From: Gammaproteobacteria bacterium
Lineage (GTDB): Bacteria; Pseudomonadota; Gammaproteobacteria; HK1
DNA: 37,269 nt
Assembly: GCA_022823045.1 (NCBI GenBank)
Contig: JAJDXW010000367.1
Span: forward strand, 1 to 37,269
Direction of reading: 5' to 3'
Below the pieces are notes generated by a model. It made no database searches and was not told the DNA's origin. It saw only the letters and a list, made by a program, of their open reading frames with translations. Every line of letters begins with the position of its first letter. Within the stretch, counting starts at the first letter, position 1. Made by a program: the position numbers and the translations under genes. This document shows positions 5,652 to 31,008 of the stretch, in pieces.

Positions 5652-5668
5652 CGGGAAGTCCGTCCCGC
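5651..5668 (+). terminator. Hairpin between binding-protein and permease genes
   Basis: GCGGGA (5651-5656) and TCCCGC (5663-5668) form a perfect 6-bp stem with a 6-nt loop, starting at the last base of the binding-protein stop codon. No T-run follows. In known importers such as malE-malF, a stem-loop here protects the binding-protein part of the message and lowers permease yield; the same role is inferred. Confidence 0.4.
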
Positions 5669-5695
5669 CACGACTGAGACCGGGTTCCGGAAATC

Positions 5696-6907
5696 GTGGC
5701 CACACGGGACGGCGCAACGGCCAGGCGGCGGCCGGGAGGGAACCCGGCCGCCGCCGCAATCGCGACCGCGGATGCGGTCGCGGCCGCGACGGCACGACGC
5801 GGCGGGCGGTGGTCGGAGTGGTTCGACCGCCAGTCCCGCACCCTCTTCGTCATGCCCGCCGTGGTCATGATCCTCATCTTCTCGATCTTCCCCCTCATCG
5901 CGACCTTCATCCTCTCCCTTTCCAGGGTGAGGCTTCGCGGCGGCGGTTATCAGATGCGATACGTCGGCGCCCGCAACTACGAGAAGCAGATATTCGGGTC
6001 GGAGCAGTGGCACTTCCTCGGCACCTTCGAAGGGGTGAGCGTGCTCGGGTGGATCGTGACCACCGCGGTGGCGGGCCTTCTCGCCTGGTGGCTCGTGCGC
6101 TACTTCCAGGGCCGGACCGGGCGGGTCAGCGTGGTGGGGTCCATCGGGCGGCTCATCACCGCGAGCGTCCTCTTCGGCCTCACCTTCATGTTCGCCGCGA
6201 CCCTGTTCAGCGGAACGCAGCTCGGCACCCTCGGGGTGACCCTCTTCTACGTCGTCGTCGGCTGCGGCATCCAGTTCCTCATCGGCCTCGGGCTCGCGTT
6301 CCTCTGCTCACAGCCCATCCGCGGGCGAACGTTCTTCCGCGTCGTCTTCTTCCTGCCCCTCATGGTGACCCCCATCGGCATCGGCTTCACCTTCCGCATG
6401 ATGGCAGACACCGGCAAGGGCCCGTTCGCCCCGGTCTGGCAGTGGTTCGGCCTCGGGGACTTCGCGTGGGCGGTGAACCCCTGGACGGCGCGGGCGTTCA
6501 TCATCGTCGGCGACTCCTGGCAGTGGATCCCTTTCATCTTCGTGGTCATGCTCGCCGCGCTCGAGAACGTCCCGCGCGACCTCGTCGAGGCCGGCCACGT
6601 GGACGGGGCGGGGGGCTGGCAGATCTTCCGCGAGATCACCTGGCCGCACATCGTGCCGGTAGCCGCCACCGTGATGCTCATCCGGGTCATCGAGGCGTTC
6701 AAGCTGGTGGACCTCCCGAACATGATGACGGGCGGCGGCCCCGGCATCGCGACGGAGTCGATGACCCTGCACTCGTTCTTCGCCTGGCGGGCGCTCGACC
6801 CGGGGCAGTCGGCGGCGATCTCGTACCTGCTGCTCTTCGTGACGGTGGTCCTTTGCGTCTCCTACTTCATGCTCGTGGTCCGAAGGCGGGCCGCGGTGCA
6901 CGGATGA
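5696..6907 (+). CDS. ABC transporter permease, MalF type, with extra membrane segments
   Basis: This is a 403-residue inner-membrane permease. The Ala/Arg-rich cytoplasmic N-terminus (1-45) precedes TM1 (about 50-75, LFVMPAVVMILIFSIFPL). Two further hydrophobic segments (about 114-135 and 150-171) lie between TM1 and the usual core, which restarts near 180. The EAA loop that docks on the ATPase is at about 298-318 (EAGHVDGAGGWQIFREITWP), with the conserved EA, DGA and I--I--P positions. The start is the GTG at 5696; no better one is near. The family norm is nearer 300 residues, so the extra segments are unusual. It probably pairs with the next permease to form the channel. Confidence 0.9.
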   Translation: MATRDGATARRRPGGNPAAAAIATADAVAAATARRGGRWSEWFDRQSRTLFVMPAVVMILIFSIFPLIATFILSLSRVRLRGGGYQMRYVGARNYEKQIFGSEQWHFLGTFEGVSVLGWIVTTAVAGLLAWWLVRYFQGRTGRVSVVGSIGRLITASVLFGLTFMFAATLFSGTQLGTLGVTLFYVVVGCGIQFLIGLGLAFLCSQPIRGRTFFRVVFFLPLMVTPIGIGFTFRMMADTGKGPFAPVWQWFGLGDFAWAVNPWTARAFIIVGDSWQWIPFIFVVMLAALENVPRDLVEAGHVDGAGGWQIFREITWPHIVPVAATVMLIRVIEAFKLVDLPNMMTGGGPGIATESMTLHSFFAWRALDPGQSAAISYLLLFVTVVLCVSYFMLVVRRRAAVHG

Positions 6908-6947
6908 GAACGATGGCGATGTCCGGAACGTCGAAAGGTTGACGAGC

Positions 6948-8042
6948 ATGGCGGAAATCCCGGCTCCCTTGCCCTTCGAGAAACGCACGAGCGGCCTCGG
7001 GCGCTGGTTCGAGCCGAAACGCATCGGCCAGATGTCCCCCGGAAGCACGGTCATCGTCTACGGGCTCCTCGCCCTGTGGTCGGCGTTCGTCCTGTTCCCG
7101 TTCTACTGGCTCGCCATCACGTCGTTCAAGCTCCCGGTCGACGTGTTCGACGGGCCGGCGTATCTCCCCTGGGTCGATTTCACTCCCAACCTCCACGCCT
7201 GGGCGGACCTCGCCGACTTCAGCGCCAAGTCGGCCCTCTCGGAGACGCTCACTCCCTACCGGAACTCCGTCATCATCGCGTTCTGCTCGACCGCGCTCTG
7301 CGTGCTCGTCGGCGCCATGGCGGCCTACGCCCTCGCCCGGATCGAGTACAAGCCCCGGTTCGGCAACATCCTCGTCTTCGTCCTGCTCATGATCGCGGCG
7401 GCGGTCGCGGTCGGCATCTACGGCGTCGACCTCTGGATTGCGGGGGCGGTGGCGGTGGCCCTCTTCGTCCTGCTCGCGCGTTCGCTGGGACGGCGCTACT
7501 TCAGGCGAAGCGTCGGCAACGCCGACATCCTGTTCTGGATGATCTCGCAGCGGATCCTGCCCCCGGTCGTCGCGGTGGTGCCGATCTACATGATGTTCCA
7601 GAAGGTCGGGATGCTCGACACCCACCTCGCGATCATCCTCACCTACACCGTCGTGAACCTCCCGATCGTGGTCTGGCTGATGCACGACTTCTTCGCGTCG
7701 ATCCCCATCGACCTCGAGGAGAGCGCGCAGCTCGACGGCGCCTCGCGGCTCATGACGTTCTTCGAGATCGTGGTGCCACTCGCGCGGGCGGGGCTCGCCG
7801 CGACCACCCTGCTCGTGCTCATCCTCTCCTGGAACGAGTATCTGGTCGCCCTCTTTCTCTCGACCACCAAGGCCCAGACCCTGCCGATCCTCGTCGCGGG
7901 CATGAACGGCGGCGAGAAGGGCATCCTGTGGTGGACGATGGCGGTGGTCATCATCATCATGATCGTCCCCGTCATCGCGATGGCGCTCCTCCTGCAGCGC
8001 TTCATCTCGAAGGGGATCCTGCTCGGAGCGGTAAAGGGATGA
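6948..8042 (+). CDS. ABC transporter permease, MalG type, with extra membrane segments
   Basis: This is a 364-residue inner-membrane permease. TM1 is at about 34-58. A periplasmic stretch of roughly 45 residues follows, then TM2 near 107-130. Two additional hydrophobic segments (about 140-160 and 163-178) come before the regular MalG core (from about 192). The EAA docking loop is at about 258-280, with ESAQLDGASRLMTFFEIVVP. Typical MalG proteins are about 280 residues, so the insertion is marked. The ATG at 6948 was preferred to the in-frame TTG at 6939 because AAAGG lies about nine nt before it. It follows the first permease after 40 nt and is followed by the ATPase after 73 nt. Confidence 0.9.
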   Translation: MAEIPAPLPFEKRTSGLGRWFEPKRIGQMSPGSTVIVYGLLALWSAFVLFPFYWLAITSFKLPVDVFDGPAYLPWVDFTPNLHAWADLADFSAKSALSETLTPYRNSVIIAFCSTALCVLVGAMAAYALARIEYKPRFGNILVFVLLMIAAAVAVGIYGVDLWIAGAVAVALFVLLARSLGRRYFRRSVGNADILFWMISQRILPPVVAVVPIYMMFQKVGMLDTHLAIILTYTVVNLPIVVWLMHDFFASIPIDLEESAQLDGASRLMTFFEIVVPLARAGLAATTLLVLILSWNEYLVALFLSTTKAQTLPILVAGMNGGEKGILWWTMAVVIIIMIVPVIAMALLLQRFISKGILLGAVKG

Positions 8043-8115
8043 GCGGGCGGCGGGCGGCGGCAAGGAGCTGCGCGGACGATGAAGGGGCGAGCCACGGCGC
8101 GGGGATGAACGAAGG

Positions 8116-9294
8116 ATGAGCGACATCGGCACGATGGCCGGCAACGGGGCGGCGGAATCCGGCACGCACGCGCACTCCCGCGCCCGGCGGCTGTCGATCC
8201 GGGGGCTGAACAAGTGGTTCGGCTCGAACCACGTGGTGAAGGACCTGAGCATCGCCGTCGAGCCGAGCGAGTTCCTGGTGCTGCTCGGCCCGTCCGGGTG
8301 CGGCAAGACGACGGCGCTCCGGATCATCGCGGGGCTCGAGGAGGCGGACTCGGGAGAGGTGGTCCTCGGCGACACCGACGTCACCAACGAGCTCCCGAAG
8401 TACCGCGACATCGCGATGGTGTTCCAGTCCTACGCGCTCTACCCCCACAAGACGGTGGCGGAGAACATCGGCTTTCCGCTCAAGGTGAGGGGGCTCAAGC
8501 CCGACGAACGGGCGGCGGCGGTGCGCGACGCGGCCGCCCAGGTCCACATGGAGGACCTCCTCGAGCGCTATCCACGCCAGCTCTCCGGGGGGCAGCGCCA
8601 GCGGGTGGCCCTCGCGCGGGCAATCGTGCGCCGGCCCTCGGCGTTCCTGATGGACGAGCCCCTCTCCAACCTCGACGCGAAGCTCCGCGGCTACATGCGC
8701 GCGGAACTCAAGCACATGCAGCACGAGCTCGGGGTGACCACGGTCTACGTGACCCACGACCAGGTCGAGGCGATGACCCTCGCGCACCGGGTCGCGATCC
8801 TCGACGAAGGGGCGCTGCAGCAGATTGGCACCCCGAGAGAGGTGTACGACAACCCCGCGAACCTCTTCGTCGCCGGCTTCATGGGGTCGCCGCCGATGAA
8901 CTTCATCCGCGGCAGCATCGAGAACGGCCGGTTCGAGAGCGGGGGCGGGGTCAGCGTCCCGGTGGAAGGCGCGGGCGACGCGGGGGCGGCGGGATTGCAC
9001 GACGGCGCGGCGGCGGTCATGGGCTTCCGCCCGGAGGACGCGGAGGTGTCCGACCCCGGGACCGGACTCTTCGACGCCACGGTCTACGCGGCGGAGCTGA
9101 CGGGCGACGTCACCCTCGTCACCGTCGCCCTCGGCGACGACGCGAGCATCGCGATCAAGATGCCGAAGGAGTACGACGTCGACTTCGACCGCAAGGTGGC
9201 GGTGGGCTTCCCCCTGGAGCGGGGCTTCCTCTTCGACGCGGCCTCCGGCGACCGTCTGCCCACCCGCTTCGTCGCCCCGCCGCCCGGTACCTGA
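8116..9294 (+). CDS. ABC transporter ATP-binding protein, UgpC/MsmK type
   Basis: This 392-residue ATPase powers the importer. Walker [10 protein letters not shown] is at about 58-66, the Q-loop in [12 protein letters not shown] at 102-113, signature LSGGQRQR at 156-163, Walker B with [11 protein letters not shown] at 177-187, and the switch histidine in VTHDQVEAM near 214. From about residue 240 there is a TOBE/OB-type regulatory domain as in MalK, UgpC and MsmK, with GFRPEDAEV inside it. The first 23 residues are extra and poorly conserved. The ATG at 8116 has GAAGG directly against it, so the ATG seven codons in could also serve as the start. It completes a four-gene importer. Confidence 0.93.
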
Positions 9295-15807: not shown

Positions 15808-17889
15808 ATGAAATTCATCGGGGTCGACATCGGCGGGACGTTCACCGACGTCGTCTTCGCCGACACCGAGTCGAGCGACATCCGGATCCACAAGGTGCCG
15901 ACGACCCCGGACGACCCGTCCCTCGGGATGCTGCACTCGGTGCGCGAGCTCTGCGAGCGCGAGGGCCTCGCCCCCGGCGAGGTCGATCACCTCTTCCACG
16001 GCACCACCATCGCGACCAACGCGGTGCTCACCCACGATGGCGCCCGCACCGGCATGATCACGAACGAGGGCTACCGCGACATCGTCCACATCGGGCGGCA
16101 CCAGCGGCCCCAGCACTACTCGATCCGGCAGGAGATCCCGTGGCAGGACCGGCCGTTCGTCCGCCGCCGCCACCGTCTCACCGTGCCCGAGCGCATCACC
16201 CCACCGGCGGGCGAGGTCCTCGTTCCGCTCGACGAGGAGGCGGTTCGGCGGGCCGCGCGGCGGCTCCGCGACGACGGCGTGGAGGCAGTCGCGGTCTGCT
16301 TCCTCTTCTCCTGGGTCGACCCCGGCCACGAGGAGCGGGCGGCGGCGATCGTCCGGGAGGAATTTCCGGAGTGCTTCGTCACCACCTCGGCCGCCGTCTC
16401 GCCCCAGTTCCGCGAGTTCGAGCGATTCACCACCACCGCGATGAACGCGTTCATCGGCCCCCGGATGCGCGACTACATGAACCGCATCGGCGACCGCATG
16501 GAGGAAGCGGGAGTCTCCGCGGAGTTCCACGTCATGAGCTCGAACGGCGGCGTCGCGACGGTGCGGACGGTCTCCGAGCGCCCCGTCGTCACCCTGCTCT
16601 CGGGGCCGGCGGCGGGGGTCCTCGGCGGGCGGTGGACCGGCGAGCTCTCCGGGCGCCGCAAGCTCATCACTTTCGACATGGGCGGCACTTCGGCCGACAT
16701 CGGCATCGTCGACGAGGGCCGCTTCGCCGAGGCGACCGCGCGCGACACCTGGATCGCCGGCTATCCGGTGCTGGTCTCGATGATCGACATCCACACCATC
16801 GGGGCGGGGGGCGGCTCGATCGCCCGCGTCGACCAGGGCGGCGGCTTCCGGGTCGGCCCGGAGAGCGCGGGCGCGGTGCCGGGGCCCGCCGCGTACGGAC
16901 GGGGCGGCCGCGAGCCCACCGTCACCGACGCGAACGTGGTGCTCGGGCGGCTCGACCGCGACTACTTCCTCGGCGGGGCGATGGCCCTCGACGAGGGGGC
17001 GGCAGGGGCGGCCATCGGCCGGCTCGCGGCCCGGATCGGCCTCGACGACCGCGAGGCGGCGGAGGGGGTGCTCGCGATCGTGAACGCGAACATGGCGAAC
17101 GCGATCAGCTCGCGCACGGTGCAAAAGGGGGTCGACCCGCGCGACTTCTCCCTCGTCGCGTTCGGCGGGGCGGGGCCGCTGCACGCCGTCGAGGTCGCGG
17201 CCCGGATCGGGATCCCGGAGGTCATCGTCCCGCCCTATCCCGGCATCACCTCGGCGGTCGGGCTCCTCACGACGGAGCTTCGCTACGACGCGGTCAAGAC
17301 CGAGTTCCAGGTGAGCGACGGCCTCGACCTCGACCGCCTGAACCGCGATCTTGCGACCGTCGAGGCAGGGATCGCGAGCCAGTTCCGCGACGACGGGGTG
17401 GAGCGGTCGGAGGTCGGGTTCGAGCGCTCGGGCGATCTGCGCTACGTCGGACAGGGCTACGAGCTCCGGGTGCCGTTCCCGGCCGGCGAGATCGGGCCGG
17501 CCGAGGCGAAGGAGCTCTTCGCCCGGTTCCACGAGCAGCACCGGGCGGAGTACGGGCACGTCTTCGAGGAGAGCCCCATCGAGATCGTGAACGTCCGGGT
17601 CGTGGGGGTGGGCCACACCCCCACCATCGGCGCCCCCCCGGCCGCCCGCGGCGAATCGCTCGACGCGGCGCGCGTGCGGACCGGCCGCGGCGCGTTCCGC
17701 ACTGCGGGCGGCGAGCTCGCCGAGGTCGAGACGCAGTTCTATCTCCGTGACCGTCTTCCGGTCGGCGAATCGTTCCCCGGCCCGGCCGTGGTGCTCCAGC
17801 GCGACTCGACGACCGTCATCCCGCCCCGAAGCGCCGCCCGCGCCGACGAGGCGGGCAATCTCATCATCACCATCGAGGTATCGCCATGA
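15808..17889 (+). CDS. hyuA: Hydantoinase/oxoprolinase family protein, A subunit
   Basis: This is a 693-residue ATP-dependent amide-ring hydrolase subunit of the HyuA/acetone carboxylase beta/5-oxoprolinase A family. It has the ASKHA fold phosphate motif VDIGGTFTDV at 6-15, HGTTIATNAVL at 64-74, LSGPAAGVLGG, FDMGGTSADIG (second phosphate loop), GAGGGSIA and FGGAGPLHA. The partner B subunit follows, with the stop and start codons overlapping in ATGA. Such pairs open hydantoins, 5-oxoproline or methylhydantoin at the cost of ATP; the exact substrate is not fixed by sequence. The start was chosen from the GGAGGAAG sequence about seven nt before the ATG at 15808. The open frame upstream is a GC-rich artefact. 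Confidence 0.93.
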   Translation: MKFIGVDIGGTFTDVVFADTESSDIRIHKVPTTPDDPSLGMLHSVRELCEREGLAPGEVDHLFHGTTIATNAVLTHDGARTGMITNEGYRDIVHIGRHQRPQHYSIRQEIPWQDRPFVRRRHRLTVPERITPPAGEVLVPLDEEAVRRAARRLRDDGVEAVAVCFLFSWVDPGHEERAAAIVREEFPECFVTTSAAVSPQFREFERFTTTAMNAFIGPRMRDYMNRIGDRMEEAGVSAEFHVMSSNGGVATVRTVSERPVVTLLSGPAAGVLGGRWTGELSGRRKLITFDMGGTSADIGIVDEGRFAEATARDTWIAGYPVLVSMIDIHTIGAGGGSIARVDQGGGFRVGPESAGAVPGPAAYGRGGREPTVTDANVVLGRLDRDYFLGGAMALDEGAAGAAIGRLAARIGLDDREAAEGVLAIVNANMANAISSRTVQKGVDPRDFSLVAFGGAGPLHAVEVAARIGIPEVIVPPYPGITSAVGLLTTELRYDAVKTEFQVSDGLDLDRLNRDLATVEAGIASQFRDDGVERSEVGFERSGDLRYVGQGYELRVPFPAGEIGPAEAKELFARFHEQHRAEYGHVFEESPIEIVNVRVVGVGHTPTIGAPPAARGESLDAARVRTGRGAFRTAGGELAEVETQFYLRDRLPVGESFPGPAVVLQRDSTTVIPPRSAARADEAGNLIITIEVSP

Positions 17890-19763
17890 GCGAGCGTCCG
17901 ACGACGACCCGCCGCCCGGACGGCGACAGCCGCGCCGGCGCCGGAAACGGTGCGGGCGGAAACGGAAACGGCGGCGGAAACGGCCGCGCCGGCAGCTCCA
18001 ACCGCCGGGTGGACCCGGTCACCGTCAGCGTCATCCAGGGTGCGCTCGAGAACATCGCGACCGAGATGGGCTACAAGCTCATGCGCATGTCGTACTCGTC
18101 GATCATCCGCGAATCGGAGGACTTCGGAGCCGGGCTCGTGGACGCCGACGGGCAGGGGCTCGCGGAATCCGCGCAGTCCACACCCCTCCAGTCGGGCCCC
18201 ATTCCGGGCTACGTGCAGGGGATGCTCCGCCAGCTCGCCGAGCGCGGCGACCCGATCCGGCCGGGCGACGTCATCATGCACAACGACGCCTACGCCGGAG
18301 CGAGCCACGGGCCGGACGTCGCCTTCATCGTGCCCGCCTTCCACCGCGAGCGCCTCGTCGGCTTCGCGGCCACCACCGCCCACCACCTCGACATCGGCGC
18401 CCTCACGCCCGGGAGCTGCGGCATCGTGGACGCCATCGACGCGTACGCGGAGGGGCTCCAGTTCAAGTCGATCAAGGTGTACGAGGCGGGGCGGAAGATC
18501 GAGCCCGTCTGGCAGCTCCTTCGCGACAACATCCGGGCCTCGGACCTCGTGGTCGGCGACATGGAGGCCCAGATCGCGGCCTCGCGGATCGGGGCGGAAC
18601 GCTTCGTCGCCCTGCACGAGCGCTACGGGCTCGAGACGGTGGAGGCGGCGGGCGAAGCGGCCAAGGACCACGCCGAGCGGCTGATGCGCTCCGCCATCGG
18701 GGGCCTCCCGGACGGCACCTGGACGGCGACGACCTTCATCGACGGCTTCCTCGACAGCGAGGACCCGACGAAACGCAACCTTCCCCTCGTCGCCACCATC
18801 ACCGTGGAGGGCGACGAGATGACCGTTGACCTCACCGGCACCGCCGACCAGGTACCCGACCGCCCCATCAACATGCCGCTGGTCGGAACCGTGGACATCG
18901 CGGTATGGCTCACCGTGCGCTCGGTGCTCCTCGACACCGCGGTGCACGGGCACATCCCGGTCAACTCGGGGCTCGTACGCCCGATCCGGATCGTCGCCCC
19001 GCGCGGCTGCCTCGCGAACCCCGTCTTCCCCGCCCCCACCATCGCCCGCTTCTGCCCCGGCAACCAGCTCGCGGACACGGTGATGAAGGCGCTCGCGGAA
19101 GCGGTGCCGGAGCAGGTGTCGGCCGGGATCGGCAACCTCAACGTCATCGCCTTCTCGGGGCTTCGCGGCGGGACCCACTGGGTCCACATGGAGATCTTCG
19201 AGGGCTCCTACGGGGGACGCCACGGGATGGACGGCATGGATGCGGTCGACACCCTGTACGCCAACACCCGCAACAACCCCATCGAGGACATCGAGTCGCA
19301 CCTGCCGCTCCGGGTGCGCCGCTACGAGCTGCGCGAGGACGTGTGCGGCGCCGGACGCTGGCGGGGCGGTCTCGGGTCGGTGCGCGAGTTCGAGTACCTC
19401 GACGACGGCGGCGGCTCGGTCGAGGGCGAGGGACACGGCTACCGGCCGTGGGGCTTCCGGGGCGGGGGCGACGGACGGCCCGCTTCGCTCGTGCTCGCGC
19501 GGGCGGACGGATCGAGCGCCGGCCTCCCCTCCAAGGTGCCCCACACGGTGGTCGCAGCGGGAGACGCCTTCGTCTGCGAGGGGCCGGCAGGCGGCGGCTA
19601 CGGGGACCCGCTCGAGCGCGATGCGGCCCAGGTCCTGGACGACGTGCTGGACGGCCTCATCTCGGCGGAGACGGCCGAGCGCGACTACGGGGTCGTGATC
19701 GCGGGGGGCGACACCCTCGACAAGGCGGCGACGGAGGCGGCCCGCGCCGCCCGCCGGGCCTGA
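17886..19763 (+). CDS. hyuB: Hydantoinase/oxoprolinase family protein, B subunit
   Basis: This is a 625-residue B subunit of the hydantoinase/oxoprolinase/acetone carboxylase alpha family. The family start DPVTVSVIQGALENIATEMG is at about 43-62. ESEDFGAGL, GDVIMHNDAYAGASHGPD, the THWVHMEIFEGSYGGR region, RYELREDVCGAGRWRGG and EGPAGGGYGDPLERD follow. The first 42 residues are extra and low in complexity, rich in Gly, Asn and Arg. Coupling to hyuA (four-base overlap) shows they form one complex. The last 29 codons occur a second time, diverged, at 21510-21587. The C-terminus ERDYGVVIAGG continues to the TGA at 19761-19763. Confidence 0.93.
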   Translation: MSERPTTTRRPDGDSRAGAGNGAGGNGNGGGNGRAGSSNRRVDPVTVSVIQGALENIATEMGYKLMRMSYSSIIRESEDFGAGLVDADGQGLAESAQSTPLQSGPIPGYVQGMLRQLAERGDPIRPGDVIMHNDAYAGASHGPDVAFIVPAFHRERLVGFAATTAHHLDIGALTPGSCGIVDAIDAYAEGLQFKSIKVYEAGRKIEPVWQLLRDNIRASDLVVGDMEAQIAASRIGAERFVALHERYGLETVEAAGEAAKDHAERLMRSAIGGLPDGTWTATTFIDGFLDSEDPTKRNLPLVATITVEGDEMTVDLTGTADQVPDRPINMPLVGTVDIAVWLTVRSVLLDTAVHGHIPVNSGLVRPIRIVAPRGCLANPVFPAPTIARFCPGNQLADTVMKALAEAVPEQVSAGIGNLNVIAFSGLRGGTHWVHMEIFEGSYGGRHGMDGMDAVDTLYANTRNNPIEDIESHLPLRVRRYELREDVCGAGRWRGGLGSVREFEYLDDGGGSVEGEGHGYRPWGFRGGGDGRPASLVLARADGSSAGLPSKVPHTVVAAGDAFVCEGPAGGGYGDPLERDAAQVLDDVLDGLISAETAERDYGVVIAGGDTLDKAATEAARAARRA

Positions 19764-19809
19764 CCCGCCGAGTCGCGCAACCAGCCCCAGGCTGTCCGGA
19801 TGCGCACTC

Positions 19810-20124
19810 GGGGCTCGTCCGCGTCAAGGCCACGACGAACTCGTTGCTTTCGAGCCGGAGGTCGGGCTCGAGGCCGGTCTTCTCGCGGAGCAGCCGGATC
19901 ATGCGCGGGATGCCGCTGCCCGCGTCGGTGACCATACCGCGCTTGAGGAGGAGGTTGTACACCGTGGGATTGCGCAGGACGTGGATGCCAACCGGCAACT
20001 GGTCCAGCCGGATGGAGATCGGCAGCCCGCCCGGCGTCCGCACCTCCACCCGGTCGTCGAAGACCAGCAGGCGAATCGGGCCGGCGATCGTGTAGTCCCG
20101 GTGCGCGACCGCTTGGCTGTTCGG
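19810..20124 (-). pseudogene. Fragment of an AlbA/HATPase_c_4-type ATP-binding regulator (RecG-like)
   Basis: On the minus strand, a frame reads QAVAHRDYTIAGPIRLLVFD, DRVEVRTPGGLPISI, GIHVLRNPTVYNLLLKRGMV and DAGSGIPRMIRLLREKTGLEP, ending near NEFVVAL. This is the C-terminal ATP-binding domain (HATPase_c_4) of proteins annotated as AlbA-domain or RecG-like transcription regulators, whose full length is about 450 residues. The N-terminal AlbA domain is missing. The frame then runs without a homologous stop into the 3' end of hyuB. It is therefore a truncated remnant, lying between hyuB and the Uma2 gene. The 286 bases from 20125 to 20410 hold no gene I can support. Confidence 0.7.
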
Positions 20125-20410
20125 CGATGGGGAATGAGCCTGCCGAATAGCGGCGCCGGGGTCCGAACAGTCCACGCATTCTGTTTACCCAACGAGGCAC
20201 GCTGGCCGTGGGTCTTCCCATTGGTTCATGCCTCATCGGCAGGCCAGGGTGAAGGGGTGACGCCAAGCAAGCTCATCGCCAGGTGGCGTTGTTGCCTCCG
20301 AGTCTCGCGCGTGAGATGGTGTTGAACGTCCGGAGGAGGGGCGAGAGAATCCGGACCGAATCGGCGTTCGCGGCGCGCCGTCAGGGATTCGGACGAAGGA
20401 GGCGCAAGCG

Positions 20411-21442
20411 ATGGAAGTCGGACCCGAGAGGTCAAGCGACGCTGCGGAGCCCATCCACGAACGTACGTCGCGCCCGCCGGCCGTAGAAGGCCGGCCCTGC
20501 CCGCTCCCCGAGTTTCCCGGCTGCCGATCGTTCAGGCTGCGGCGGGACGAAGTCGAGGCGTACGAGCGGCACATCGAGTTCTGGGACGCAGCGACGGAGA
20601 CGGCATGGGAGCTCCGCAACGTGACCGGCGCCCACGAGGTGCCGGGCCAGCGCCTCGTGGGGCTTTGCGCGGTCATCGCCGGGGTGCGCGGCGCAGGGAT
20701 CACGTGCTTCGGCCATACGAGCTTCATCGAGTGCAACGAACGCGGCGAGCGCCTGCGTCTTCTCGAAGCGGACGAGGCGGTGTACCTGTACCCAGGGCGG
20801 GCGAGGATGCCGCTCGACACCGTATTGACGGTGGGCAAGCACGACCTTCCCGACGTGATTCTCGAGGTCGACAACACGACGGACGTCCGCCGGGGAAAGC
20901 TCCAGCTCTACGAATCGTTCGGTCTCCCGGAAGTCTGGGTGGAGGTCCCGGACGTGCAGACACGGGGTCGCCCGCGGGGTCTCGTCCGCGGCCTCACGAT
21001 CTACCGGCTCGAGAGCGGCCGGTATCGGGTGGTGGCGGAGAGCGGAGTGTTTCCGGGTTGGAGGGCGTCGGAGATCCACACGGCGCTGAACGAGCTCGAG
21101 GTGTCGGCCCGCACGAGTAGCGCGCTCACGCGAGTGGGGCGGGCGCTTGGGTGTAGGGACGGCACCCGGCCCGACGACATGCCGTGGCTTCGCATCCAGC
21201 GCGAGGAGAGTCGCGAGGAGGGGCGGGCCGAAGGCCGTGCCCAAGGTCGTGCCGAGGGACACGAACAAGGCATCGAGAGGGCGATCGACGCCATCCTCGC
21301 CGGCCGCGGCTTCACCTGGACGCAGACGGTGCGCGAAGCCCGCAGGCGGTCCCGCGCGACGGATGCGGACGTGATCGCGGCCCTCCTGCATTGCGAGAAT
21401 GAGACGGACTTTCGGGCCCGACTCCGCCTGCCCCCGCCCTGA
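20411..21442 (+). CDS. Uma2 family (PD-(D/E)XK nuclease-like) protein
   Basis: This is a 343-residue protein. The Uma2/DUF820 core carries LPDVILEVDNTTD (Asp148, Glu152), then RRGKLQLYESFGLPEVWVEV with Lys163, the expected PD-D/E-x-K-like positions, and the LY--FG-PE-W signature of the family. Uma2 proteins are of unknown biological role and often occur in many copies; some are near mobile elements. From about residue 270 there is a charged repeat tail, REEGRAEGRAQGRAEG, as in many PD-(D/E)XK proteins of the Rpn/transposase-associated type, followed by a helical end. GGAGG about eight nt before the ATG supports the start. It stands in the segment between the two hyuB 3' ends. Confidence 0.8.
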   Translation: MEVGPERSSDAAEPIHERTSRPPAVEGRPCPLPEFPGCRSFRLRRDEVEAYERHIEFWDAATETAWELRNVTGAHEVPGQRLVGLCAVIAGVRGAGITCFGHTSFIECNERGERLRLLEADEAVYLYPGRARMPLDTVLTVGKHDLPDVILEVDNTTDVRRGKLQLYESFGLPEVWVEVPDVQTRGRPRGLVRGLTIYRLESGRYRVVAESGVFPGWRASEIHTALNELEVSARTSSALTRVGRALGCRDGTRPDDMPWLRIQREESREEGRAEGRAQGRAEGHEQGIERAIDAILAGRGFTWTQTVREARRRSRATDADVIAALLHCENETDFRARLRLPPP

Positions 21443-21487
21443 GCCCCGCTCCGCCCGCGCTGCGGGCCGAAAGCCAAGGGTGAGGTC

Positions 21488-21587
21488 AGCGGCCTCGGAA
21501 ACGGCGCCGGAGCGCGACTACGGGGTCTTGATCGCCGGGGGCAACACCCTCGACGAGGCGGCGACGGAGGCCGCCCGCCGGGCCTGA
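21488..21587 (+). pseudogene. Second, partial copy of the hyuB 3' end
   Basis: The frame reads ASETAPERDYGVLIAGGN, then TLDEAATEAARRA and stop. It matches the last codons of hyuB (19677-19763). Over the 78 bases from 21510 there are five substitutions and one 9-base in-frame deletion. No upstream part of a hyuB gene is present, so this is a relic of a paralogous or duplicated hyuB. Confidence 0.85.
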
Positions 21588-21606
21588 CCTCCCGGCCCGC
21601 GGCCGC

Positions 21607-22230
21607 CTACGAAGGGGGGCGAGTCCGCGGGCGCGGGCGGCGGAGGGCGATCGGGCGGTCGATCACCTCGCGGAGGAGGAAGAGTTCGCGGAGCGAGTCC
21701 GGATCGTGGATCCGCCCGCGAAACCGCTGCAAGCGGGTCGACCCGCGGGTTCCGGCGCGACCGAGCTCGCGGGGAGATGAGGAGCGGGCCGCGGCCGGGC
21801 GGTCGGCGGCCCGGCCCGGCATCGGCGCTTCCCGGGTCGGCGCTGAAGGGGCGTCCCGCCGAATCCCACCGCCGGACTGCCTCTCTCGGACTCCGAACGG
21901 GTCGAATGTCTCCGCGCGTGCCGCGGCACGGCGATGCTTGGGTGCCGGCCTCTGCAGTACCGCCTCGGTCACGGGCGCTCCAAGGGCTTGGTCGACGGCA
22001 CGCGCGGCGGCCATGCTTTCCGGCGCGGGCGCCGCTCGTGCCTCACCGCTCCCGGGCCGTCGCCACGGCGACTCCTCCTCCTCGTCGAGAGCGATTTCCT
22101 CGAACGTCGCGTCCTCTTCTTCGTCCTCGTAACCGTACGCGCGGCGGTCGAAGCCTGCGGCCTCGGGCTGCAGCTCCGTCTGGAGCTGCTCCATCCTCTC
22201 CCGCAGCCGCGCCATGAACGAACCGGCCAT
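21607..22230 (-). CDS. Unrecognised protein linked to floA
   Basis: This is a 207-residue protein that I do not recognise. It starts with a short amphipathic helix, MAGSFMARLRERMEQLQTEL, then has an acidic patch (about 35-54, DEEEDATFEEIALDEEEE), a long disordered Pro/Ala/Arg-rich middle, and an ordered-looking tail, HDPDSLRELFLLREVIDRPI, near 175-194, ending in a basic patch. AGGAG lies about five nt before the ATG at 22230. It follows floA by 62 nt on the same strand and is the third gene of the nfeD-floA operon, so a role with the flotillin scaffold is inferred. I recall short proteins with a similar tail next to floA in other bacteria, but cannot verify this. Confidence 0.7.
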   Translation of the reverse strand: MAGSFMARLRERMEQLQTELQPEAAGFDRRAYGYEDEEEDATFEEIALDEEEESPWRRPGSGEARAAPAPESMAAARAVDQALGAPVTEAVLQRPAPKHRRAAARAETFDPFGVRERQSGGGIRRDAPSAPTREAPMPGRAADRPAAARSSSPRELGRAGTRGSTRLQRFRGRIHDPDSLRELFLLREVIDRPIALRRPRPRTRPPS

Positions 22231-22292
22231 CTCGACTCCTCAGCTCGCCGCGCCCTTGCGGGCCGCGGCGCTCATCCGTTCCCGTCCCGGCC

Positions 22293-23321
22293 TCAGCGCG
22301 GATCGGCGACCGGGGCCGTCGTGCCCCCTTCGTCCTCGCCCCGTTCGCCGGCGGCGAGACTTCCCCGCATCCGCGTGTCGGCCTGGATGTTCTGCATCCC
22401 GTAGTAGTCCATGATCCCGAGGTTGCCGCTCCGGAACGCGTCCGCGATCGCCTTCGGCACTTCCGCCTCGGCGAGCACTACCTTGGCCTGGTTCTCCTGG
22501 ACGAGGGCGACCATCTCCTGCTCCCGGGCCACCGCCAGCGCGCGCTGGCGCTCGGCCTGCGCCTGGGCGACCTGCTTCTCGGCCTCGGCCTGGTCGATCT
22601 TGAGCCGCGCCCCGACGTTGTCGCCGACGTCGATGTCCGCGATGTCGATCGAGAGGATCTCGAACGCGGTCCCCGAATCGAGGCCGCGCTCGAGCACCAC
22701 CTTCGAGATCTGGTCCGGGTTCTCGAGCACCCGCATGTGGTTCTCGGCCGACCCGATGGTGGTCACGATGCCCTCGCCGACCCGGGCCACGATCGTCTCT
22801 TCGGTCGCGCCGCCGACCAGCCGTTCGAGGTTCGTCCGCACCGTGACCCGGGCCTTCACCTTGAGCTGGATCCCGTCCCCCGCGATCGCGTCGATGGTGC
22901 TGCGCGCCATCGTGCCCGACGGCACGTCGATCACCTTCGGGTTGACGGAGGTGTCGACGGCCTCCTTGGCGTCCCGCCCGGCGAGGTCGATCGCGCAGCA
23001 CCGATCGTAGGTCAGCTCGATGTTCGCCTTGTTGGCGGAGATGATCGCCTGCACCACCCGCACGACGTTGCCGCCCGCGAGGTAGTGCGCCTCGAGCTCG
23101 TCTCCGGTCACCTCGATTCCCGCCTTCCGGGCGGTGATGCGGGCGGTGACGATGGTGCCGGGATTCACCTTGCGGAACCGCATGAAGATGATCTGGACGA
23201 GGCTCACCGGGGCGTTGGAGAGGATGGATTGCCACCAGAGCCAGAACGAGTTCCAGATGAGGGCGAAGATCACGAGAACGACGATTGCGCCGATCGCGAG
23301 GCCGATGAGTTCGATGATCAT
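22293..23321 (-). CDS. floA: Flotillin-like protein FloA
   Basis: This is a 342-residue membrane-scaffold protein of the FloA (YqfA) type, which organises membrane microdomains. An N-terminal hydrophobic hairpin (1-50) anchors it in the cytoplasmic membrane: [20 protein letters not shown] and a second hydrophobic stretch before [12 protein letters not shown]. The flotillin/SPFH-like body has [20 protein letters not shown], the [20 protein letters not shown] segment and [20 protein letters not shown]. The coiled-coil region (from about 245) is [20 protein letters not shown], with a C-terminal tail. GAGGAGG upstream decides the ATG at 23321. Length and domain order are as in the family. nfeD is 67 nt upstream on the same strand, the standard arrangement. 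Confidence 0.95.
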
Positions 23322-23388
23322 GTCAGGCTGACCTCCTCGGTTCCTGTGGTGAGTCCCTGGGGCGGGCGGTGCATGGGGTGGCCCGCGA

Positions 23389-23880
23389 TCAGGACGGCGG
23401 CTGCGTCACGAAGATGATGGGGCCGTCGATGCGTTCGACGACCACCGTGGCCCCCGCCTCCAGCACCGGGCCGTGCACCTGCACGTCGCACTCGCCCCCC
23501 GCGAAGCGTGCCCGGCCGATCGGCCGCGCCGGGGTGACGAGCTCCCCCTCGGAGCCGGGGCCGATCGCGAGCCGGTCGGCGACGTGCCGGTAGCCGGCGT
23601 CGGCGACGACCTCGGACTTCGGCACCGCGGACCGCGACGCGCGGATCCGGACGAGCCCCCATCGGGCGGCGAAGAGCGCCCCGACCGGGATCAGGGTCAC
23701 GCTCGTCCAGCCCGCCACGTCGTGGGCGTCGAACGCGTAGACGATCGAGCCGACCGCGCACGCGATGGCCGCGATGAGGAGCAGCCCGAAGGAGACCACG
23801 AAGACCTCGAGGACGACGAGCACCGCGGCCGCGCCGAGCAGCCCGAGCGATACGAGGAGCGCCGTCCAGTCGAGTTCCAC
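23389..23880 (-). CDS. nfeD: NfeD-like protein, short form
   Basis: This is a 163-residue membrane protein of the short NfeD class that accompanies flotillins. Three hydrophobic segments (about 6-25, 28-49, 58-70) are followed by a soluble OB-fold domain from about 90: [20 protein letters not shown], then [19 protein letters not shown]. The start is the GTG at 23880, with GGAGG six nt before it. No protease domain is present, as is usual for the short form. It is the first gene of the nfeD-floA-unknown operon. Confidence 0.9.
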
Positions 23881-23938
23881 GCGATCCTCCCCACCCTCCT
23901 GGCGCCGAGAGCGGCCGGCCTTGCCAATCGGCCCCGCG

Positions 23939-23969
23939 ATTCTACCCCTCCGAACGCCGTCGTGGTGAA
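23939..23969 (-). promoter_or_regulatory. Weak promoter candidate for the nfeD-floA operon
   Basis: On the minus strand TAGAAT (23944-23939) is a five-of-six -10 element, and TTCACC (23969-23964) a four-of-six -35, but the spacing of 19 nt is long. The 229-base intergenic region to the divergent pilus operon shows no better candidate, and none for the plus strand. Confidence 0.28.
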
Positions 23970-24109
23970 GCGGGACGATTGCCTACGGCCGAGGGCGCCG
24001 ATTCCTACGAACGTCGGCCCGATATCTCGCGAAAGTCGCGCCAGTCCACCCTGTTCCGGCCCGCCGGTCCCCTCGCAGAATCCCGGCACGGTGAAGACGG
24101 ACCCGTGGC

Positions 24110-26356
24110 ATGGGCGACACGAATCGAACGCGACGCGAGCGGAGCGGAGCAAGACCGGGGCTCGGGATGGGCGCCGCCGTCGTGCTCTCCCTCGCGACCG
24201 GCTGCGCGGCCCCGCCTCCCGCGGACCCCGCTCGCGATCTCGCCGCGCCCGAACCCGCGCGCATCCCGGCCCCGGTCCTGACGCCGCCCCCCGTGCCGAA
24301 GCCCGTCCCGGGCGAGCCGGTCGAGACCTGGTCCGTCTCGGTCGAGGGCGTCCCCGTCCGCGAGCTCCTCTTCGCCCTCGCCCGGGATGCGGCCGTGGAC
24401 GCGGACATCGACCCGGGCATCGAGGAGCGGGTAACCATGAACGCGATCGACGAGCCGCTCCCCCGCCTGCTCGACCGCATATCCCGGCACGCGGATCTGC
24501 GCGTCGAGATCGAGGATGGCGTCCTCGTCGTCCGGAGGGACGAGCCGGTGCTTCGCACCTATCCGATCGACTACGTCCCCCTCGCCCGGGAAACGGAGAC
24601 GGTGAACGAGGTGGGAACCGGTGTCGGGGGCGGGATCGAGGCGCCGGCCGGCGAGGAGAACGGCTCTGCCGCGAACGTGCGGGCGCGGGCCGAACACCGG
24701 TTCTGGGACGCGCTCGTCGAGTCGGTGCGCGGGGTGCTCGGTGAGGCGCCGGACGAGGCGGCGAGCGTGTTCGCCCATCGCGAAACCAGCCTCATCGCGG
24801 TGCGGGCGAACGCCGCCGGGCATCGCGAGGTGGCGCTCCTCCTCGATCGCATTCTCGCGAGCGCCCGGCGCCAGGTCCTGATCGAAGCGACCATCGTCGA
24901 GGTCGAGCTCGACGACCGCTTCCGGGCCGGGGTCGACCTGTCGCGGGTCTTCGGCGACGCCGCGATCGAGTGGAGCCTCCTCGCCGGCAACCTCCGCGCC
25001 CCGCCCTTCGCCGGACTCTCCATCCCCGACCTCTCGCTCACGGTCCGGCTCCTCAGCGAGTTCGGGGACGTGCGGGTGCTCTCCACCCCGCTCGTCATGG
25101 CCCTCAACAACCAGACCGCGATCGTCAAGATCGCCGAGAACCGGGTGTTCTTCACCTCCGAGGTCCGGACCGAGACGAACGAGACCACGGTCGAGCGCAA
25201 CGTCCAGACCAAGCTGCACACGGTCCCGGTCGGACTCATCCTCCTCGTGACTCCGTCGGTCGCGGCGGACGGCGAGATCATCCTCAAGGTACGCCCCACC
25301 GTCACCCGGGAGAGCGGGTTCGTGGTCGACCCGAACCCGGAGCTCGCGGCGGCCGGGGTGGTGAGCCGGATCCCGGAGATCGCGGTCCGCGAGATCGAGT
25401 CCGTGCTGCGCCTTCGAAGCGGCGAAGTTGCGGTGCTGGGGGGACTCATGCGGGAGGAGGCGCACGAGGACACGACGGGGGTCCCGCTCCTCTCCCGCCT
25501 CCCGGGGATCGGGGCCGCGTTCCGGTACCGGGACCGGGTCCGCGACAAGACCGAGCTCATCGTGTTCCTGCGCCCGACGGTGGTCCGGGAGCCGGGCCTC
25601 GCGGGGGACCTCGCGAAGTACCGCCGGTGGTGGCCGGCGGTGGGCAGGGCGGTCGTGCCGGAGCGGGGCGCGCAGATGCGGGGCGCACCGGAGCCAGGCG
25701 TTCGAGATCACGGCCCTACGCGGTCCGGCGCGGGCGGCGAGGCTCGGCTCCTCATCGAGCGGGCGCGAGCCGGGAACCCCGCGGACGGGCTGCTCTTGCG
25801 GGCCTGGACCGCGCTTCGGCGAGGAGACTACCCGACCGCGCGGGCCGCCTACCTCGAAGCGTTGGACGCTCGCCCGGACGAGGCCCTGGCCGGCCTTGCC
25901 GCCGCCGCCCTCCGCGAGGGACGGATCGCGGCGGCGCGGGGGTGGTACCTCCACCTTGCCGCCCGCGATCCGGAGCAGGAGATCGGCGGAACGATGTCCT
26001 TCGTGCTCGACCCTGACCGGGACCCGACGGTGCGCGAACGCGAGCTCGCGCGGCGGGTGTCGCGGGCATCGGAGGCCGCGTGGCTCAACGTGGCGCGCGG
26101 GAACGCGCTTGCCGAACAGGGCCGGTGGGAGGCGGCGGCGAGCGCCTACCGGGACGCCCGCCGGGACGCCCCGTCGAACCCCGATCCGGCATACAACCTC
26201 GCGGTGAGCTCAGAGCGACGCGGCCGGCCCCGTCGGGCCCTGTCGCACTACCGCGACGCGCTCGACCTCGCCCGGCTCGCGCCCCCCGCTTTCGACGTGC
26301 GCGCCGTCCGCGATCGGATTGCGGCCCTCGAAGGGCGGGCCGCGGGACGCCCATGA
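24110..26356 (+). CDS. Secretin (MshL/PilQ/GspD family) fused to a C-terminal TPR domain
   Basis: This is a 748-residue outer-membrane secretin lipoprotein. A lipoprotein signal with VVLSLATGC puts the lipidated Cys at residue 32. A Pro-rich linker (33-68) precedes an N0/STN-like domain (about 72-145), an N1-like domain (about 198-250), and the secretin core (about 253-495), including VRVLSTPLVMALNNQTAIVK, VGLILLVTPSV, the GEVAVLGGLMREE lip segment and KTELIVFLRPTVV at its end. After about 540 come TPR-like helices (LLRAWTALRRGDYPTARAAY; NALAEQGRWEAAASAYRDAR). In MSHA systems the secretin MshL and the TPR protein MshN are separate; here they look fused. It is first in the operon and overlaps the next gene by four bases. 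Confidence 0.88.
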   Translation: MGDTNRTRRERSGARPGLGMGAAVVLSLATGCAAPPPADPARDLAAPEPARIPAPVLTPPPVPKPVPGEPVETWSVSVEGVPVRELLFALARDAAVDADIDPGIEERVTMNAIDEPLPRLLDRISRHADLRVEIEDGVLVVRRDEPVLRTYPIDYVPLARETETVNEVGTGVGGGIEAPAGEENGSAANVRARAEHRFWDALVESVRGVLGEAPDEAASVFAHRETSLIAVRANAAGHREVALLLDRILASARRQVLIEATIVEVELDDRFRAGVDLSRVFGDAAIEWSLLAGNLRAPPFAGLSIPDLSLTVRLLSEFGDVRVLSTPLVMALNNQTAIVKIAENRVFFTSEVRTETNETTVERNVQTKLHTVPVGLILLVTPSVAADGEIILKVRPTVTRESGFVVDPNPELAAAGVVSRIPEIAVREIESVLRLRSGEVAVLGGLMREEAHEDTTGVPLLSRLPGIGAAFRYRDRVRDKTELIVFLRPTVVREPGLAGDLAKYRRWWPAVGRAVVPERGAQMRGAPEPGVRDHGPTRSGAGGEARLLIERARAGNPADGLLLRAWTALRRGDYPTARAAYLEALDARPDEALAGLAAAALREGRIAAARGWYLHLAARDPEQEIGGTMSFVLDPDRDPTVRERELARRVSRASEAAWLNVARGNALAEQGRWEAAASAYRDARRDAPSNPDPAYNLAVSSERRGRPRRALSHYRDALDLARLAPPAFDVRAVRDRIAALEGRAAGRP

Positions 26357-28281: not shown

Positions 28282-29489
28282 TGGCCCTCGTCCCGATGCG
28301 CTATCGGGCGATGGACGCGCGCGGACGCATCCGGCGCGGCCGCATGGAGGCCGCGAACGAGCTCGACCTCGAGGCCCGCCTTCGCCGGCTCGACCTCGAC
28401 CTCGTCTCGTGCACGCGCGCCCCCGCGGCGAGGACGTGGTCGCTCCGCCCCCCGGTCCGCCGCGGCCAGCTCATCAACTTCTGCTTCCATCTCGAGCAGC
28501 TCCTCGCCGCGAGCGTGCCCATTCCCGAAGCGCTCGCGGACCTCCGCGACTCCGTCAAGGGGTTCCGCCTCCGCGAGGTGATCACGTCCATGGTCGAGGC
28601 AATTCACGCCGGGGCGAGGCTCTCCGAAGCGATGGCCCGACATCCCGAGGCGTTCGACTCGATGATGGTCAACCTGGTTCGCGCCGGCGAGTCGAGCGGG
28701 CAGCTTCCCGCGGTTCTCCAACGGCTCACCGAGACCCTGCGCTGGCACGACGAGCAGGCGATGCAGTTCCGCAAGGCGCTCATGGCCCCGGCCCTCGTCG
28801 CATTGGTCATCGGCGCGGTCGTCGTGTTCCTCATGCTCTATCTCGTCCCCCGGCTCGCCGGGTTCATCGAGACCATGGGGGAGGAGCTGCCCGCGCACGC
28901 CCGTGCCCTCATCGCGCTGTCGCGGTTCTTCCAGGACTGGTGGTTCCTCCTGCCCGCGGCCGGGGTCCCCTGGGCGCTCCTCGCGGCGGGAGCGCGCCTG
29001 AGTCCGCGCCTTCGCCGAGCCAAGGACGCGCTGCGCCTGCGCATCTGGGTCGTCGGACCTCTCCGCAAGAAGCTCATCCTGGCCCGGTTCGTCAACTACT
29101 TCGCGCTCATGTACGCCTCAGGGATGTCCGTGCTCCAGAGCATCCGGATCGGCGAGGGGCTGCTCGGCAACCGAGTGGTGGAAGAGGCGGCGCGCACTGC
29201 CGCGAAGCGGATCGCGGAAGGGGCCAGCATCAGCGAAGGCTTCGAACAGGCCGGCCTGTTCCCGCCGCTCGTTCTGAGGATGCTGCGGGTGGGGGAGAGC
29301 ACCGGCGCCCTCGACACCGCTCTTTCCAACATCAGTTACTTCTACGAGCGCGACGTGCGGGACGCGGCGGAGCGGGTGCAGGGGCTCGTCGGACCGGCGT
29401 GCACCCTGTTGCTGGGCGCACTGCTGCTGTGGGTGGTGGTGTCGGTGATGGGTCCGATCTATGAGATGGTCGCCGGCATTTCCCTCTAG
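28281..29489 (+). CDS. mshG: Inner-membrane platform protein, MshG/PilC/GspF type
   Basis: This is a 402-residue membrane protein with two T2SS-F domains, the rotor/platform on which the ATPase acts. Domain 1 (about 65-188) has LINFCFHLEQLLAASVPIPE and VRAGESSGQLPAVL. TM1 is around 173-195, TM2 around 218-237. Domain 2 (about 255-375) repeats the pattern with FVNYFALMYASGMSVLQSIR and LRVGESTGALDTAL. TM3 (about 375-395) is near the end. The start is a GTG at 28281 overlapping the ATPase stop (TAGTG), with GAGGG about nine nt upstream; the ATG five codons later is possible. Length is normal. Confidence 0.92.
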   Translation: MALVPMRYRAMDARGRIRRGRMEAANELDLEARLRRLDLDLVSCTRAPAARTWSLRPPVRRGQLINFCFHLEQLLAASVPIPEALADLRDSVKGFRLREVITSMVEAIHAGARLSEAMARHPEAFDSMMVNLVRAGESSGQLPAVLQRLTETLRWHDEQAMQFRKALMAPALVALVIGAVVVFLMLYLVPRLAGFIETMGEELPAHARALIALSRFFQDWWFLLPAAGVPWALLAAGARLSPRLRRAKDALRLRIWVVGPLRKKLILARFVNYFALMYASGMSVLQSIRIGEGLLGNRVVEEAARTAAKRIAEGASISEGFEQAGLFPPLVLRMLRVGESTGALDTALSNISYFYERDVRDAAERVQGLVGPACTLLLGALLLWVVVSVMGPIYEMVAGISL

Positions 29490-31008
29490 GCGCTCCGAAC
29501 GCTGGGTGCTGGTGGTCCGGGCGGGCGGGGCCGGCCTGTTCCGGGGAACCCGCAGGGCCGTCCGCGCGGTCGCGGACTTAACCGCGGACGAGGCCGGATA
29601 CACCGAGCTCCGGCGGAATGTCGAACGCGCCGCCCGACGGCCGATTCACATTCTCGTCGATCTCGTCGAGGAGGACTTCCGGCGCGAGACGGCCCCCCAC
29701 GTGCACGGCCCCACGCGGCGGTCGATCCTCAAGACTCGGAGCGCCCGACTGTTTCCCGGTACGCCCTTCGTCTCGGCCCGGCGGGAGGGACGGATGCCCG
29801 ATGGGCGGCGCGACGACCGGATCCTGTTCTCCGCCATCGTCCGGCCCGAGCGGATCGAGCCCTGGCTCGACGCGCTTCGCGGGCACGAGGTTGCCGGAGT
29901 CCACTCGCTTCCCATGGTCAGCGCAGGGCTGCTTCCGTTCCTCGGGGCGGGTTCCGGACCGGTGCTCCTCGTCACCGAGAGCGGCGATCGGGATCTGCGC
30001 CAGACGTGCTTCGAGAACGGACGCGTGACACTCAGCCGGCTCGCGACCCTCCCGCCCGGGGAGCCGGTGGAAAGGGCGCGGCGCATTGTGGAGGAAGTGG
30101 AGCGGATCATGCATCACCTCGAGCGCTCCTCCGGACGCTCCACGGAGGGGCTGGGTTTCCGCCTCGTGGGAGGCGCTCCGCTCCTCGCCGCGCTGCGGGA
30201 TTCCAAGCTTCCCGGCGAACTGGCCGAAGGGCTCGTCGACACGGCGGCGCTCGAGGGCCGGCTCGGCGGTCGCTCCCGTCCGTACACCGCCGACCGCAAC
30301 GTCGGCTCGAAGGGCGGGAGCGACCGCATGTTCGCGTACCTGGCCCTCAACCGCCCGCTCCCAAATCACTACGCGTCGGCGCCGGTCCTCGCGATGTACC
30401 GGACAAAGCAGGCCGGCCGCGCGTTCAAGACGGCGGGAGTCGCGATGCTCCTCGCGGGTACGGCCCTTGGCGGGGCAGCGTGGCATCGCGGCGGTGAGCT
30501 CGCCGCCGCGGCGGAGGCCCTCGAGCGGCAAGCGGCCGACGTCGAGTCCCTCTACCGGACGGAACGGCTGCCGGAGTCGGAAGTCGGGCCGGACGACCTC
30601 CGGGTCGTGGTCGAGGCCGCGGAGCGGCTCGACGCCAACCGGATCGGAGCGCTCCCGATCCTCCGAACGGTGAGTGACGCGCTTGCGGTATTCCCCGATC
30701 TCGAGCTCGGGAGCCTCGAGTGGTTCGAGATCTCCGAGCGCGATGGGTGGCCGTCGCCTCCCGCCGAGGACGCCCCCCGAACGGGATTCCGGGTGGTGCA
30801 TCTGCGCGGCCGGGTGGAGCCATTCACCGGGCACTATCGGGCCGCCGCCGACGAAGTGTTCCGGTTCGTGGACAGGCTCGAAGCCATGCCCGGACTGAGC
30901 GGAGTCGACGTGACCGACCTGCCGCAAGACGGGGATGACGGGAACCGCCGTCGCCGCCCGGATGCCGGCTTCGAGTTGAGGATGGTGGTGGATGCCCGGG
31001 CCGGTTGA
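29461..31008 (+). CDS. Inner-membrane pilus assembly protein, PilM/GspL/PilN-like fusion
   Basis: This is a 515-residue bitopic protein. The cytoplasmic part (1-320) has VLVVRAGGAGLFRG and ILVDLVEEDFRRE, then LRQTCFENGRVTLSRL (179-194) and a helix before RLVGGAPLLAALR, the pattern of the actin-like cytoplasmic domain of GspL/PilM proteins. One membrane segment lies at about 323-341. The remainder (342-515) is periplasmic, with a helical stretch then mixed strands, as in PilN/GspL. In other systems these are two proteins, PilM and PilN (or MshI). The ATG at 29461 overlaps mshG by 29 nt; a GTG at 29506 could be the start instead. Assignment rests on layout and a few motifs. Confidence 0.65.
   Translation: MRWSPAFPSRRSERWVLVVRAGGAGLFRGTRRAVRAVADLTADEAGYTELRRNVERAARRPIHILVDLVEEDFRRETAPHVHGPTRRSILKTRSARLFPGTPFVSARREGRMPDGRRDDRILFSAIVRPERIEPWLDALRGHEVAGVHSLPMVSAGLLPFLGAGSGPVLLVTESGDRDLRQTCFENGRVTLSRLATLPPGEPVERARRIVEEVERIMHHLERSSGRSTEGLGFRLVGGAPLLAALRDSKLPGELAEGLVDTAALEGRLGGRSRPYTADRNVGSKGGSDRMFAYLALNRPLPNHYASAPVLAMYRTKQAGRAFKTAGVAMLLAGTALGGAAWHRGGELAAAAEALERQAADVESLYRTERLPESEVGPDDLRVVVEAAERLDANRIGALPILRTVSDALAVFPDLELGSLEWFEISERDGWPSPPAEDAPRTGFRVVHLRGRVEPFTGHYRAAADEVFRFVDRLEAMPGLSGVDVTDLPQDGDDGNRRRRPDAGFELRMVVDARAG

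Follow-up and report, generated by a model that had tools for sequence, protein, structure and literature searches.

We analysed a window of 37,269 bp in which hyuB, which encodes a Hydantoinase_B protein, is followed by a second copy of its own 3' end. Between the two copies lie a fragment of an ATP-binding regulator and a Uma2-family gene, and beyond the second copy the sequence continues into the native region leading to floA (Table 1).

Table 1. Features at the hyuB locus. Positions are those of the window; G001 and G002 are genomes of other species of the same genus.
Feature	Positions	Strand	Details
hyuA, hydantoinase/oxoprolinase A-type partner, 693 aa	15808..17889	+	Upstream; named from its position and an earlier note
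hyuB, intact, 625 aa, Hydantoinase_B	17886..19763	+	PF02538, E 1e-149
Copy 1, hyuB 3' end	19652..19765	+	Closes the working hyuB; homology to G001 ends at 19765
Inserted segment	19766..21489		1724 bp, or 1739 bp if copy 2 starts at 21505; no counterpart at the orthologous position in G001 or G002
HATPase_c_4 C-terminal fragment, AlbA/RecG-C-terminal type, 97 aa	19819..20109	-	PF13749, E 8e-16; N-terminal part missing
Uma2-family gene, 343 aa, intact ORF	20411..21442	+	PF05685, E 3e-4
Copy 2, displaced decaying hyuB 3' end	21490..21589	+	9-nt deletion, V-to-L change and D/N difference; runs into the native 3' flank
Native hyuB 3' flank	21590..21748		Homologous to the sequence right after hyuB in G001 and G002
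floA	22293..23321	-	PF12127, E 2e-147; first well-conserved gene of the native downstream side, then nfeD and a gspD-like gene

The last ~95-110 bp of hyuB (19652/19667-19765) were present again at 21490/21505-21589. A search of the entire window for direct repeats (14-base seed, at least 60 bp) returned this repeat only, with 86% identity over 85 nt (19661-19745 against 21494-21578). Gapped alignment of 19652-19765 with 21490-21589 gave 91 identical bases among the 97 aligned and three indels, one of which is a 9-nt in-frame deletion in copy 2 relative to copy 1. The alignment score of 129 was far beyond chance, the maximum in 200 dinucleotide shuffles being 38.5. From GAGCGCGAC to the hyuB stop codon at 19761-19763 (19677-19763 against 21510-21587), 74 of 78 bases were identical; moving the gap by one codon to a later position lowers this to 73. 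The count of 73 matches plus a 9-base in-frame deletion given in the earlier note on this DNA therefore holds to within the placement of the gap. Upstream of this main match the copies remained alignable slightly further with two small indels, so that the left edge of copy 2 is uncertain to within about 15 bp; homology is confident from 21505.

Relatives were aligned across the site, a check proposed in the earlier note, using G001 and G002 and two further genomes of the same family, G016 and G004. Orthologs in G001, G002, G016 and G004 were 93, 92, 89 and 77% identical for hyuB and 92, 90, 89 and 70% identical for hyuA (tblastn). The gene order hyuA, hyuB, floA, nfeD, gspD was common to the genome of the window, G001 and G002, and floA, in the same place in both congeners, was 93 and 95% identical. 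Window positions 17800-19765 corresponded to 4323-6303 of G001 and positions 21505-24174 to 6210-8861, so that the two blocks overlap in G001 by 94 bp, which is the repeat, and 19766-21504 has no counterpart there. The site in G002 had the same structure, with a single hyuB tail leading directly into the native flank. Since each of these congeners has one hyuB 3' end running into the floA/nfeD/gspD region, the ~1.73 kb between the copies is, on comparison of the sequences, an insertion, present among the compared genomes only in that of the window. In G016 and G004, which also have one hyuB each, other genes lie downstream, convergent with hyuB, and because these differ, the two genomes have no bearing on the insertion. 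G001 and G002 could instead have lost the segment through recombination between the two repeats. Given roughly equal distances among the three species, this would need two losses, or one in an ancestor of G001 and G002, and a single gain is simpler. Adjoining floA, a 207-aa ORF on the minus strand (21607-22230) had no Pfam match; it was 51% identical in G001, only a short piece could be recognised in G002, and it may be fast-evolving or partly non-coding.

Two histories had been offered in the earlier note, an insertion that duplicated the gene end and a tandem hyuB, and the empty site in G001 and G002 supports the former. Relative to the native flank, copy 2 does have the order and orientation expected if the body of a second, tandem hyuB had been deleted or replaced by the Uma2 segment. 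However, each of the four relatives has a single hyuB at the site, hyuB sequence in the segment reaches no further back than about codon 593, from which tblastn found only about the last 20 alignable residues, and further events would be needed, making a tandem origin very improbable. What looks like half of a gene is the displaced end of hyuB rather than a remnant of a second copy of the gene. The earlier note had also named assembly error as a possible refutation. The genome is a draft of 432 contigs with 7% estimated contamination, and unrelated contigs could have been joined through the hyuB tail during metagenome assembly, but the longest exact match between the copies was only 20 bp, each copy carries independent differences, and conserved synteny with G001 and G002 anchors both flanks. 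We therefore give an artefact hardly any credence.

The match to PF13749 and the weaker one to PF05685 agree with the earlier description of a regulator fragment and a Uma2 gene between the copies. The enclosed length is ~1.72-1.74 kb. The best relatives of the HATPase_c_4 fragment in the family were 39-41% identical, and inspection by eye of the six-frame translation of 20106-20420 revealed no recognisable N-terminal continuation. No gene could be recognised in 20110-20410, and this stretch had no match in eight family genomes. The Uma2 ORF scored 20.8 bits against PF05685, below the gathering threshold of 27; seven of the eight aligned family members matched PF05685 at E <= 0.001 (best E 3e-7), and the protein was 48-57% identical to seven relatives over nearly its full length. 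The intact ORF makes Uma2 the one putatively functional gene of the segment. A close relative of the insert was not found in the eight family genomes, the best Uma2 identity being 56-57%. The region of the regulator fragment (19657-20175, minus strand) matched PADLOC models of SIR2-associated Argonautes weakly (E 5e-6), and the Uma2 gene matched PDC-S17 (E 1e-4); both matches probably reflect shared domains only. Codon use of the segment, which the earlier note had suggested comparing, gave a mixed answer. In a comparison that leaves out hyuA, the Uma2 gene had a GC3 of 0.84 and a codon adaptation of 0.60, the reference genes spanning 0.84-0.96 and 0.62-0.86, but a native gene at 29461-31008 had similar values. 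The codon adaptation of Uma2, lower than that of most neighbours, may be considered only supportive of a foreign origin.

The two copies differed from one another at 4 of 78 sites, apart from the 9-nt deletion. Copy 1 differed from G001 at 11 of 87 sites and copy 2 at 11 of 78, comparisons with G002 gave 19-22 differences, and G001 and G002 differed from each other at 22 of 87 sites. Divergence between the copies is therefore about a third to a half of that between species at the hyuB tail. As the copies resemble each other more than either resembles G001, the duplication occurred after the species split or came from a donor closer than G001. At 19695 (G to T) all four relatives agreed with copy 1, placing the change on copy 2, and the 9 nt missing from copy 2 were present in G001, placing the deletion on copy 2 as well. 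This substitution is the one that is clearly polarised, and the polarity of the other three substituted sites cannot be safely assigned. Of the four substitutions, three are non-synonymous in the reading frame of hyuB. The pattern is as expected if copy 1 serves as the end of the working gene and copy 2 is a relic free of constraint.

The empty sites in two congeners, the single hyuB tail found there, and the continuation of copy 2 into the native flank are the observed basis of the explanation that we favour, with confidence only a little better than even: a foreign segment of ~1.73 kb may have been inserted at the hyuB 3' end in the lineage leading to the window's species, after its split from G001 and G002, through anchoring by hyuB-tail homology. 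The incoming DNA would have included a 3' end from a closely related hyuB, with which the resident hyuB would have paired to provide the anchor on one side, while the other side would have been joined ~95-110 bp inside the resident hyuB end. As a result, hyuB would stay complete with copy 1, and the resident tail would be pushed downstream as copy 2, to decay later as substitutions accumulated and 9 nt were deleted between short repeats. Homology-facilitated illegitimate recombination could have produced this structure in one step, and so could a Campbell-type single crossover in which the incoming DNA was a circle with the hyuB tail, the outcome being the same. We infer the joining step through hyuB-tail homology, and it is the weakest link of the explanation. 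Rival joining mechanisms leave the same scar as homology-anchored integration, and it is the scar that is observed. A donor molecule carrying both the anchor gene and the insert was not found in the genomes searched, nor was an intermediate. Sliding identity along hyuB revealed no jump in divergence beside copy 1 that would mark a donor tract, as would also be the case had the donor been conspecific. In all pairs, hyuB was most variable at its two ends.

Homology-facilitated illegitimate recombination is known from Streptococcus pneumoniae, Acinetobacter and Pseudomonas stutzeri. As at the hyuB site, foreign DNA comes to lie beside a homologous anchor and resident sequence is shifted downstream as an orphan. 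The process has been reported in E. coli conjugation (PMC3240628) and put forward to explain how genes were displaced in Vibrio T6SS arrays (PMC5361080), and a mechanism of the same kind has been proposed for variable segments of E. coli genomes (PMC2884548). The hyuB site differs from these cases in that the displaced sequence is the near-identical tail of an ordinary enzyme gene, rather than an immunity gene or a variable gene end, and in that no donor was identified here.

A comparable geometry is produced by integrative elements that target the 3' ends of genes, such as phage 21 in icd, where the gene stays complete and a displaced 3' end marks the far border. The insert could accordingly be the remnant of a site-specific element that used the hyuB 3' end as its attachment site and restored hyuB with a gene end of its own, the rest having been deleted save for the regulator fragment and the Uma2 cargo. 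The arrangement of a restored gene and a displaced end is that of islands and phages with such targets, and the duplication is long, lies in a gene end and keeps the gene complete at one border. However, the insert is only 1.7 kb, and apart from the HATPase fragment and Uma2 no integrase, recombinase, phage or other element gene was found in it; neither the insert nor the tail had a phage match, and Uma2 had no plasmid match. A search of the genome with the repeat returned copy 2 and hyuB paralogs, and four tail-only matches, when examined, proved to be full paralogs and not orphan tails. We regard an element remnant as unlikely. Still far less probable is that an undescribed mobile unit, lacking a recognisable integrase, uses the hyuB 3' end for attachment, spreads Uma2 genes among these bacteria and brings its own copy of the host-gene tail.

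The closeness of the copies to each other, greater than to any relative, and the lack of a visible donor tract in hyuB would also be expected if foreign DNA had been captured within a local tandem duplication of ~100 bp, arising for example through fill-in of widely staggered breaks or through template switching in the course of repair. Such an origin is conceivable and we give it some weight, while considering it improbable: duplication and capture would both be needed at the same break, and 95-110 bp greatly exceeds the usual transposon target duplication, with no inverted ends. Moreover, flanking repeats were absent at 20 other Uma2 loci from the same genome and five relatives, where the best local matches were at chance level (E 0.005 or worse). 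The tail duplication thus belongs to the hyuB event and not to Uma2 mobility in general, and is not a habit of Uma2 cargo. A transposon with target-site duplication would likewise leave direct repeats at both borders and relatives with an empty site, but the hyuB repeat is ~100 bp and not a short target duplication, no transposase was found in the insert, and terminal inverted repeats were not found, the inverted match between the insert ends falling below the shuffled mean. Insertion of a DDE transposon is therefore disfavoured.

The site is an ordinary small genome insertion, a single old event of a known kind that is explained by known processes, and it leaves general understanding unchanged. 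Its value lies in its clarity: with the site empty in two sister species, it illustrates how a small cargo can settle behind an operon without harm to the operon and leave a readable scar. The suggestion in the earlier note that the site is unstable is weakly supported: the differing downstream genes of the more distant relatives show only that change is tolerated here, and the site displays a single insertion, between whose flanking copies divergence has already built up.

Elsewhere, no AlbA-type fragment was matched beside Uma2 genes at E 1e-4 in 100 Uma2 loci, and a search of the literature on Uma2 in sponge symbionts found nothing useful, nor did one on 3'-end integration. At two other Uma2 loci of the genus, the gene and its flanks matched different places in synteny comparisons, which is consistent with a patchy family. 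The Uma2 subfamily was multi-copy, with up to 12 matches per genome, and patchy in occurrence (G000, G001, G002, G013 and G015, loci L076-L155). Relatives ~40-55% identical occurred in MAGs labelled Acidobacteria, Gammaproteobacteria, Spirochaetaceae, Deltaproteobacteria and Gemmatimonadetes, a distribution that suggests wide horizontal spread. The HyuB (Hydantoinase_B) family was itself strongly expanded, with at least 23 loci per genome in G000, G001, G002 and G016 (the genus and one relative); genomes of other families of the class had 0-2 loci each.
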